Positions 3,416 through 4,567 of a DNA stretch of 28,998 nt are shown here, piece by piece. Made by a program: the position numbers and the translations under genes. The notes beneath the pieces are model-generated. The model saw nothing but the letters and a program-made list of their open reading frames with translations. It was not told the origin of the DNA and ran no database searches. This stretch comes from a virus. How positions within the stretch are numbered: the stretch's first letter is position 1; each line of letters opens with the position of its first letter. The stretch spans positions 1 through 28,998 of the IMG/VR virus record IMGVR_UViG_3300008116_000189. The stretch is one strand, 5' to 3'.

Positions 3416-3848
3416 TTGGGATAAGCGTTTTCTAGATCTTGCTGATCATATTGCTCAATGGTCAAAAGATCCACGCACTAAAGTAGGGGCTGTGATTGTA
3501 GATGAAAAAAAGAGAGTGGTTTCTGTTGGCTATAATGGCTTCCCTAGGGGTGTGGCTGATCTTGAGTCTCGATATGATGATCGACCAACAAAGCACCTAT
3601 TCGTGGCTCACGCTGAGCGCAATGCCCTAGACAACGCACCATTGCAGGTGGATGGCTGTACGCTTTACGTGCCTCTCATCCCATGTAATGAATGTGCAAA
3701 GTCTATTATTCAAAGCGGTATTCATCGTGTTGTTTCCTATGTGCCTAATCGTGACGGGGAAGGCTTTAACTGGGATATTACAATAGCTATGTTTATTGAA
3801 GCTGGTGTAGAACTTTTTTTGATGGAACGCCTTGCAAATCAAGATTAA
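3408..3848 (+). CDS. dCMP deaminase (146 aa)
   Basis: The zinc and catalytic signature of the cytidine/deoxycytidylate deaminase family is complete: HAE at residues 68-70 and PCNEC at 92-96, with the substrate-loop motif GYNGFPRGV near residue 41. Length and motif spacing match the phage and bacterial dCMP deaminase group, which converts dCMP to dUMP and so feeds dTMP synthesis during phage DNA replication. T4 encodes an equivalent enzyme. The gene overlaps the preceding small gene by 8 nt and is followed by a separate promoter for the heat-shock gene. Confidence 0.92.
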   Translation: MADWDKRFLDLADHIAQWSKDPRTKVGAVIVDEKKRVVSVGYNGFPRGVADLESRYDDRPTKHLFVAHAERNALDNAPLQVDGCTLYVPLIPCNECAKSIIQSGIHRVVSYVPNRDGEGFNWDITIAMFIEAGVELFLMERLANQD

Positions 3849-3859
3849 GGCATTATATA
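3832..3859 (+). promoter_or_regulatory. Promoter for the small heat-shock gene
   Basis: TTGCAA (3832-3837), 16 nt, then TATATA (3854-3859). A second TATATA register at 3856-3861 gives an 18-nt spacer. The -35 lies inside the end of the dCMP deaminase gene. The start would be near 3865-3868, giving a leader of about 50 nt. Confidence 0.55.
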
Positions 3860-3864
3860 TACTC

Positions 3865-3908
3865 TGTCACGCCTACTGGGTGACAAATTTAAACTCGCTG
3901 AAAAGGAG
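3865..3908 (+). promoter_or_regulatory. Candidate RNA thermometer (ROSE-like) in the Hsp20 leader
   Basis: Two hairpins fill the leader. The first pairs TGTCAC-(G)-CC (3865-3873) with GGGTGACA (3878-3885) around a TACT loop, with G3871 bulged. The second pairs CTC-(G)-CT (3894-3899) with the Shine-Dalgarno AGGAG (3904-3908) around a GAAA tetraloop, with G3897 bulged. A bulged-G hairpin masking the ribosome site of a small heat-shock gene is the hallmark of ROSE-type thermometers. Function is inferred. Confidence 0.55.
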
Positions 3909-3916
3909 AATTATCT

Positions 3917-4435
3917 ATGTGGAATCATAACCACTCATTTAAGGACTTTGATCGTTTCTTTGTTGGATTCGATAAGGTCGCGGAAAAGATGGCTTCTGTT
4001 GCTGATCAAGCACAGGCTTTAGCCGCAAAATATCCCCCATACAATCTCAAGAAGATTGACGAAAACAAGTATACGATTGAACTCGCTGTTGCTGGTTTTG
4101 CTAAGCAAGACCTTGAGATTGAAATCGTAGACGATAAGCTCATTATCAAGGGCAATACTCACTCCGGTGAACCTGCTGAGCAGGACTCAGCTGGCGAATG
4201 GACCTGGCCTCAGGTACTTCATCAAGGGCTCGCAATGCGCCCATTCACACGCACTTTCACTCTCTCGGATAACGTAGAGATTCGTGGTGCATCTCTTCTG
4301 AATGGTATTCTTAAGATTGTTCTGGAAGCTATTATTCCTGAACATAAGAAGCCAAAGAAGATCGATATTAATGACGAGGAAGAAACATCTGCACCTTCGA
4401 CTGCAGAGTATCTCGCAGAACGTAAGGAAAAGTAA
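3917..4435 (+). CDS. Small heat-shock protein, Hsp20/alpha-crystallin family (172 aa)
   Basis: The central region, roughly residues 40-135, has the alpha-crystallin domain pattern: NLKKIDENKYTIELAVAGF, DLEIEIVDDKLIIKG, and then FTRTFTLSDNVEIRGASLLNG followed by ILKIVLE. The C-terminal tail carries an I-x-I type motif (KKIDIN), which in this family docks neighbouring dimers in the oligomer. It resembles IbpA-type chaperones that hold unfolding proteins. T4-like cyanophages also carry such genes. The ATG has AGGAG 8 nt upstream. The leader can fold so that this site is paired, suggesting heat control. The gene has its own promoter. Confidence 0.92.
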   Translation: MWNHNHSFKDFDRFFVGFDKVAEKMASVADQAQALAAKYPPYNLKKIDENKYTIELAVAGFAKQDLEIEIVDDKLIIKGNTHSGEPAEQDSAGEWTWPQVLHQGLAMRPFTRTFTLSDNVEIRGASLLNGILKIVLEAIIPEHKKPKKIDINDEEETSAPSTAEYLAERKEK

Positions 4436-4535: not shown

Positions 4536-4567
4536 AAAAAGAGGGAGGTTTGGCCTCCCTCTTTTTT
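4534..4567. terminator. Bidirectional rho-independent terminator
   Basis: A run of A, the perfect 8-bp stem GAGGGAGG / CCTCCCTC (4541-4548 and 4554-4561) with loop TTTGG, then a run of T. The A-run and T-run make it work on both strands, which fits the convergent genes ending on either side. Confidence 0.9.

Follow-up and report, generated by a model that had tools for sequence, protein, structure and literature searches.

A short two-hairpin ROSE-like element, likely an RNA thermometer, in the leader of phage small heat-shock genes

Does the short leader in front of a phage small heat-shock gene act as an RNA thermometer of the ROSE type? The question is raised by the stretch of DNA read here on one strand over its full length (hereafter the window), i.e., the 28,998-nt IMG/VR virus record IMGVR_UViG_3300008116_000189 (positions 1-28,998). 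On its plus strand, 68 nt separate a dCMP-deaminase-like gene, ending at 3848, from hsp20 (3917-4435), whose 172-aa product is a small heat-shock protein, as originally predicted and as established by its matches to Pfam HSP20 (3.5e-16) and PHROG 432 (Hsp20, 2e-37). Two hairpins are found in this leader, on the same strand. Hairpin 1 (3865-3885) pairs TGTCAC (3865-3870) and CC (3872-3873), separated by the bulged G3871, with GG (3878-3879) and GTGACA (3880-3885) around a TACT loop; what had been described as an 8-bp hairpin with one bulged G consists precisely of 6+2 pairs flanking the bulge. Hairpin 2 (3894-3908), the ROSE core, pairs CTC (3894-3896) and CT (3898-3899), i.e., 3+2 pairs flanking the bulged G3897, across a GAAA loop (3900-3903) with AGGAG (3904-3908), which from the sequence is the Shine-Dalgarno (SD), located 8 nt upstream of the ATG at 3917 and masked by this hairpin. 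The minimum free energy structure computed with ViennaRNA for 3865-3908 corresponds exactly to these two hairpins at all temperatures tried between 10 and 42 C, in agreement with the pairing first proposed, with energies at 37 C of -9.8 kcal/mol for hairpin 1 and -2.0 kcal/mol for hairpin 2. Elsewhere in the window, a strong GC hairpin with A and T runs on either side (4536-4567), likely a two-way terminator, separates hsp20 from an endolysin-like gene in convergent orientation, and a very long gene of collagen-like G-x-y repeats, probably encoding a tail fibre, runs off the contig (25572-28997).

The ROSE class has been described as including non-canonical pairing and an SD hairpin in which U(U/C)GCU faces the SD with one bulged G (PMC11182007). 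In the window, the element precedes a small heat-shock gene (3917-4435) as part of its 5' leader, its 3'-most hairpin pairs the SD as CUC[G]CU/AGGAG with a single bulged G, and its two covarying hairpins fall within the two to four hairpins of the class. The strand facing the SD being CUCGCU, four consecutive U as in fourU thermometers were not found there. Among 4227 Rfam families compared with the 221 bases around the leader, ROSE_3 (RF02523) gave the best full-length match (19.6 bits, E 0.052), with a bulged G in both hairpins and ACUCGCU...AGGAG fitting the consensus core; the differences are a score well under the gathering cut-off of 43 bits, a shorter loop in hairpin 2 and an AT-rich spacer. 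The best ROSE_3 matches are located exactly at the hsp20 start in the Methylophilales phage Melnitz-3 (E 1.6e-6), in C48C1 (1.3e-4) and in L001, the twin contig of the window (3.3e-4), as well as in S-RIM2 and S-H25, within a search of 21 phage records, none of which rose above the cut-off of RF00435, RF01832 or RF02523. RF00435 matched neither the phage records nor the control genomes and is thus uninformative, while RF01832 gave a single weak match, overlying the element found by our own phage model R1 (see below) at 57075-57150 of phage record G007. Likewise, a gathering-level Rfam scan covering the window together with 20 phage and 20 bacterial loci returned zero ROSE calls. We do not take this as disproof, since the scan also misses bacterial leaders that carry the full ROSE signature. 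In a related phage (L008, 492-663), a manA RNA motif (RF01745) was detected barely above its cut-off.

The element is widespread among related phages. A protein search in IMG/VR provided 80 phage hsp20 loci, whose leaders keep AACUCGCUUAAUAGGAG or CUUGCU..AGGAG ahead of the start codon, following a hairpin whose apex is GCC-loop-GG. R1, a covariance model that we built on 34 of these leaders, delimits the whole element of the window at 3862-3918 on the plus strand (61.1 bits, E 6e-13, the window itself being part of the training set). In a first search, all 76 loci with upstream sequence had an R1 match upstream of hsp20 (the 34 training leaders being among them), and in a second set this was the case for 86 of 88 sources (E no higher than 0.05 in 83 of these). 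This second set covers the Synechococcus phages S-H25, S-RIM2, S-PM2 and ACG-2014f, Prochlorococcus phage P-HM1, Methylophilales phage Melnitz-3, Pelagibacter phage HTVC008M, C48C1 and the Pseudomonas jumbo phage MIJ3; scores are weak for HTVC008M, S-PM2, C48C1 and MIJ3, yet the matches end right at the hsp20 start codon. When 20 whole phage records were searched at E up to 0.1, 18 gave exactly one R1 match, HTVC008M gave two and C48C1 gave none. Wherever coordinates could be compared these matches precede hsp20, ending at its start in the annotated records, with the exception of MIJ3, whose genome-wide match falls elsewhere and whose hsp20 leader does not reach the 0.1 threshold. In P-HM1 (NC_015280; L087, 535-592), the annotated GTG start of hsp20 falls inside hairpin 1, and the true start is probably an ATG near 590.

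A reverse scan, blind to the gene, gave the same picture. An exact IMG/VR search for ACTCGCTTAN{1,6}AGGAG retrieved at least 80 loci and, for the matches listed with at least 500 nt downstream, Hsp20 is encoded within 1500 nt in 66 of 73 and by the immediately following gene in 61. Among the matches listed, the exceptions include three small genes that look phasin-like and one that looks peroxiredoxin-like, all named by eye; ROSE-like SD hairpins lacking a typical hairpin 1 precede such phasin-like or peroxiredoxin-like genes in L272, L299, L294 and L258.

An apparent absence of the element at some loci was considered and rejected, the element being located there ahead of an inserted small gene. 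Such a gene lies between element and hsp20 in L171 (1235-1483) and also in L002, L014-L017, L024-L026 and L044. In L171 it encodes an EF-hand protein (Pfam 6e-7) with a signal-like N-terminus and comes first after the element, which would therefore control a first cistron other than hsp20. A different gene, helical and phasin-looking (69-98 aa), for which no Pfam or PHROG match was found, occupies this position in L217 (1221-1445), L239, L203, L199, L228 and about 15 more loci. Finally, L250 has ROSE elements in tandem, one (1249-1304) before a rubredoxin-like gene and the other (1413-1473) before hsp20.

Compensatory changes in the hsp20 leaders of relatives, which the original prediction had named as a check, were found, and the stems are conserved. 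Across 85 aligned phage leaders, in an alignment fitted to the structure, 92.3% of the cells are paired versus 75.6% in shuffles, 182 double changes are observed versus 43, and the covariation score is 0.443 versus 0.145, none of 500 shuffles reaching the observed values (counts which kinship among the leaders prevents from being probabilities), while slid registers attain at most 0.100. An anchor-based test, using fixed offsets from conserved motifs and not fitted to the structure, led to the same result. Most of this signal comes from hairpin 1, where 99.5% of the cells are paired and six of the eight pairs have both-sided changes, a single pair taking as many as six types. Double changes in hairpin 2 are confined to the outermost pair (C-G, U-A and A-U being seen), the inner pairs being invariant or varying on one side; such nearly fixed core pairs are expected because one of the strands is the SD. 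Its bulged G is present in all parsed phage leaders, one parser requiring this base and a separate alignment not requiring it. A candidate compensation linking the U-G core to an additional outer pair (Fisher 2.5e-6) was downgraded, since about five core changes on the Hsp20 tree leave too few independent pairs. Some folding-energy averages that included misaligned or unpairable rows were set aside.

The element is not restricted to viruses. Despite its phage-only training, R1 detects it in 21 of 80 bacterial loci (E < 0.005), just where hsp20 starts, in SAR11, SAR86, Woeseiaceae, the PS1 clade and other, mostly marine, proteobacteria. These bacterial leaders have the same two hairpins and bulged Gs; they differ by their CUUGCU core, with the bulged G in 19 of 19 parsed leaders, and by loops of 5-9 nt. 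Phages therefore have the element in common with proteobacterial hsp20 and did not invent it. In an Hsp20 tree, which is partly weak, the window lies inside a supported phage clade of 31, and the phage Hsp20s need four label changes.

Covarying stems, the bulged G, a U(U/C)GCU strand facing AGGA, the position before hsp20, the ROSE_3 best match and the marine bacterial homologues all speak for the ROSE-like reading originally advanced, and we consider it likely, with good though not full confidence, that this leader is a short two-hairpin RNA thermometer of ROSE type in the 5' leader of the phage hsp20 mRNA. At low temperature, hairpin 2 would pair CUC-[G]-CU with the SD AGGAG and block 30S binding; upon warming, this marginally stable hairpin would open and Hsp20 would be translated, while hairpin 1 would stay closed near the predicted 5' end of the late transcript, where it probably shields the mRNA and favours the folding of hairpin 2. 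The closest precedent is the ibpA leader of Pseudomonas, an experimentally proven thermometer with a two-hairpin ROSE-like element, in which hairpin II melts with temperature while hairpin I does not and removal of the unpaired G locks the switch (PMC3669281). Both leaders have only two hairpins within about 60 nt, a stable hairpin 1 and a small heat-shock gene downstream, and in both the SD-masking hairpin 2 contains a single unpaired G (G39 in Pseudomonas, whose removal shuts the switch). This same anatomy argues for the same action in the phage leader, and these phages probably make more chaperone in warmth. It also corrects the earlier view of a motif shortened to a minimal form in a phage, elements of this size being known from experiment in Pseudomonas (PMC3669281). 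The window differs in that its gene is a phage gene, the loop has 4 nt, CUC replaces CUU, many relatives have a late-promoter motif in front, and the evidence comes from sequence.

Temperature-dependent melting, and a benefit to the phage, are inferred. Folding at several temperatures, the other check initially suggested, left both hairpins in place from 10 to 42 C; the predicted exposure of the SD in the window rises only shallowly, from 0.03 at 20 C to 0.07 at 37 C and 0.18 at 50 C, and the energy of the isolated hairpin 2 crosses zero near 55 C. Several relatives are predicted to fold otherwise and the bacterial homologues perform equally poorly in the same calculation. Such accessibility curves do not separate thermometers from non-thermometers. 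The non-canonical pairs of ROSE are not captured by nearest-neighbour energies, and for this reason the shallow predicted opening neither supports nor refutes the reading.

The main rival of the thermometer reading, or possibly its partner, is autorepression. The leader could mainly be a target of Hsp20 itself, which would bind its own 5' UTR and hold back translation until the chaperone is titrated by aggregated or nascent proteins, as in the case of E. coli IbpA; the signal would then be the protein-folding load of the infection and not temperature, even though both controls could act together. IbpA has been demonstrated to repress its own translation through binding to the 5' UTR, Arg93 being essential (PMC10474464). 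At the corresponding column, within the alpha-crystallin domain, an Arg is found in the window Hsp20 and in seven other aligned phage Hsp20s, whereas IbpB, which lacks the activity, has a Gln; this aligned Arg (R108) is invariant in 15 phage Hsp20s. In addition, the apex of hairpin 1 is of the type ACGCC(UAAU)GGGU, and this hairpin resembles the hairpin CGCCUGAUGGGUG contained in the E. coli ibpA leader. The phage model matches both the ibpA and ibpB leaders of E. coli weakly (6.9 and 13.3 bits); their elements are longer. However, binding of phage Hsp20 to the leader is putative, the Arg may be kept for structural reasons, and the most rigidly conserved part of the leader is the SD-masking ROSE core, which suffices for temperature control in Pseudomonas. 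As the main function of the leader, autorepression is in our view improbable.

The sequence immediately upstream bears on a further explanation. The T4 late promoter motif NATAAATA is present in 58 of 121 phage leaders, from 40 nt upstream of the model start to 8 nt inside it, and 39 of these 58 motifs share one starting position, 9-10 nt ahead of the model start; with a background of 0.016 per 48 nt, about two would be expected, and the bacterial leaders, unlike those of phages, are nearly devoid of it (1 of 21). In the window, TATATATA (3854-3861, plus strand), with one mismatch to the T4-type late promoter TATAAATA of relatives, starts at the equivalent position, 8 nt ahead of the model start. 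T4 spacing would put transcript starts at the foot of hairpin 1, and in the window the 5' end of the late transcript may accordingly be placed just at this hairpin. Together with the high stability of hairpin 1, directly behind the late promoter motif, this arrangement would suit a constitutive structured leader that senses nothing, its hairpins setting the level of translation and protecting the 5' end of the late mRNA, and stabilization of mRNAs by 5' hairpins has been discussed (PMC3669281). Such a leader fails to explain the conserved unpaired G, the near-invariant U(C/U)GCU strand and why the element occurs essentially only before hsp20, and we judge it rather less probable still than autorepression. 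As for chance, a single 15-nt hairpin across the SD is easily found in any genome, but covariation and conservation in phages and bacteria refute this explanation, whose probability is negligible.

The thermometer reading has few precedents among viruses. The cIII switch of phage lambda is of a different structural kind. It is one of three phage thermometers known according to a 2024 paper, along with SPbeta blyA and a sigma70 gene of a gut phage (PMC11182007); like the element proposed here these are RNA thermometers in phage genes, but none is described as ROSE, SPbeta blyA being of fourU type (PMC10586365), and none controls a chaperone. Across the full-text literature open to search without subscription, we found neither a ROSE element in any virus nor a thermometer in a cyanophage hsp20 leader. 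The new parts are the breadth of the element across T4-like phages, its coupling to a late promoter and its link to the leaders of marine bacteria.

One comparison of 16 T4-like cyanophages places hsp20 among the core genes present in every one of them, and a role in the maturation of the capsid has been suggested (PMC3037559). A broader proposal, which in our estimation stands evenly between right and wrong, is that hsp20 routinely comes with ROSE in marine and freshwater T4-like phages. A late promoter would set the timing and ROSE, possibly read also by Hsp20, would respond to temperature or folding load; in some lineages its control would extend to a first gene inserted ahead of hsp20, of EF-hand, phasin-like or rubredoxin-like type. 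If such hybrid control is true, chaperone output of the phage, and perhaps burst size, would track the temperature of the water without depending on the heat-shock response of the host. Should the leader act as a thermometer, direct temperature sensing by RNA occurs in a very common group of ocean viruses, and changing a single base would allow a test of how warming affects infection.
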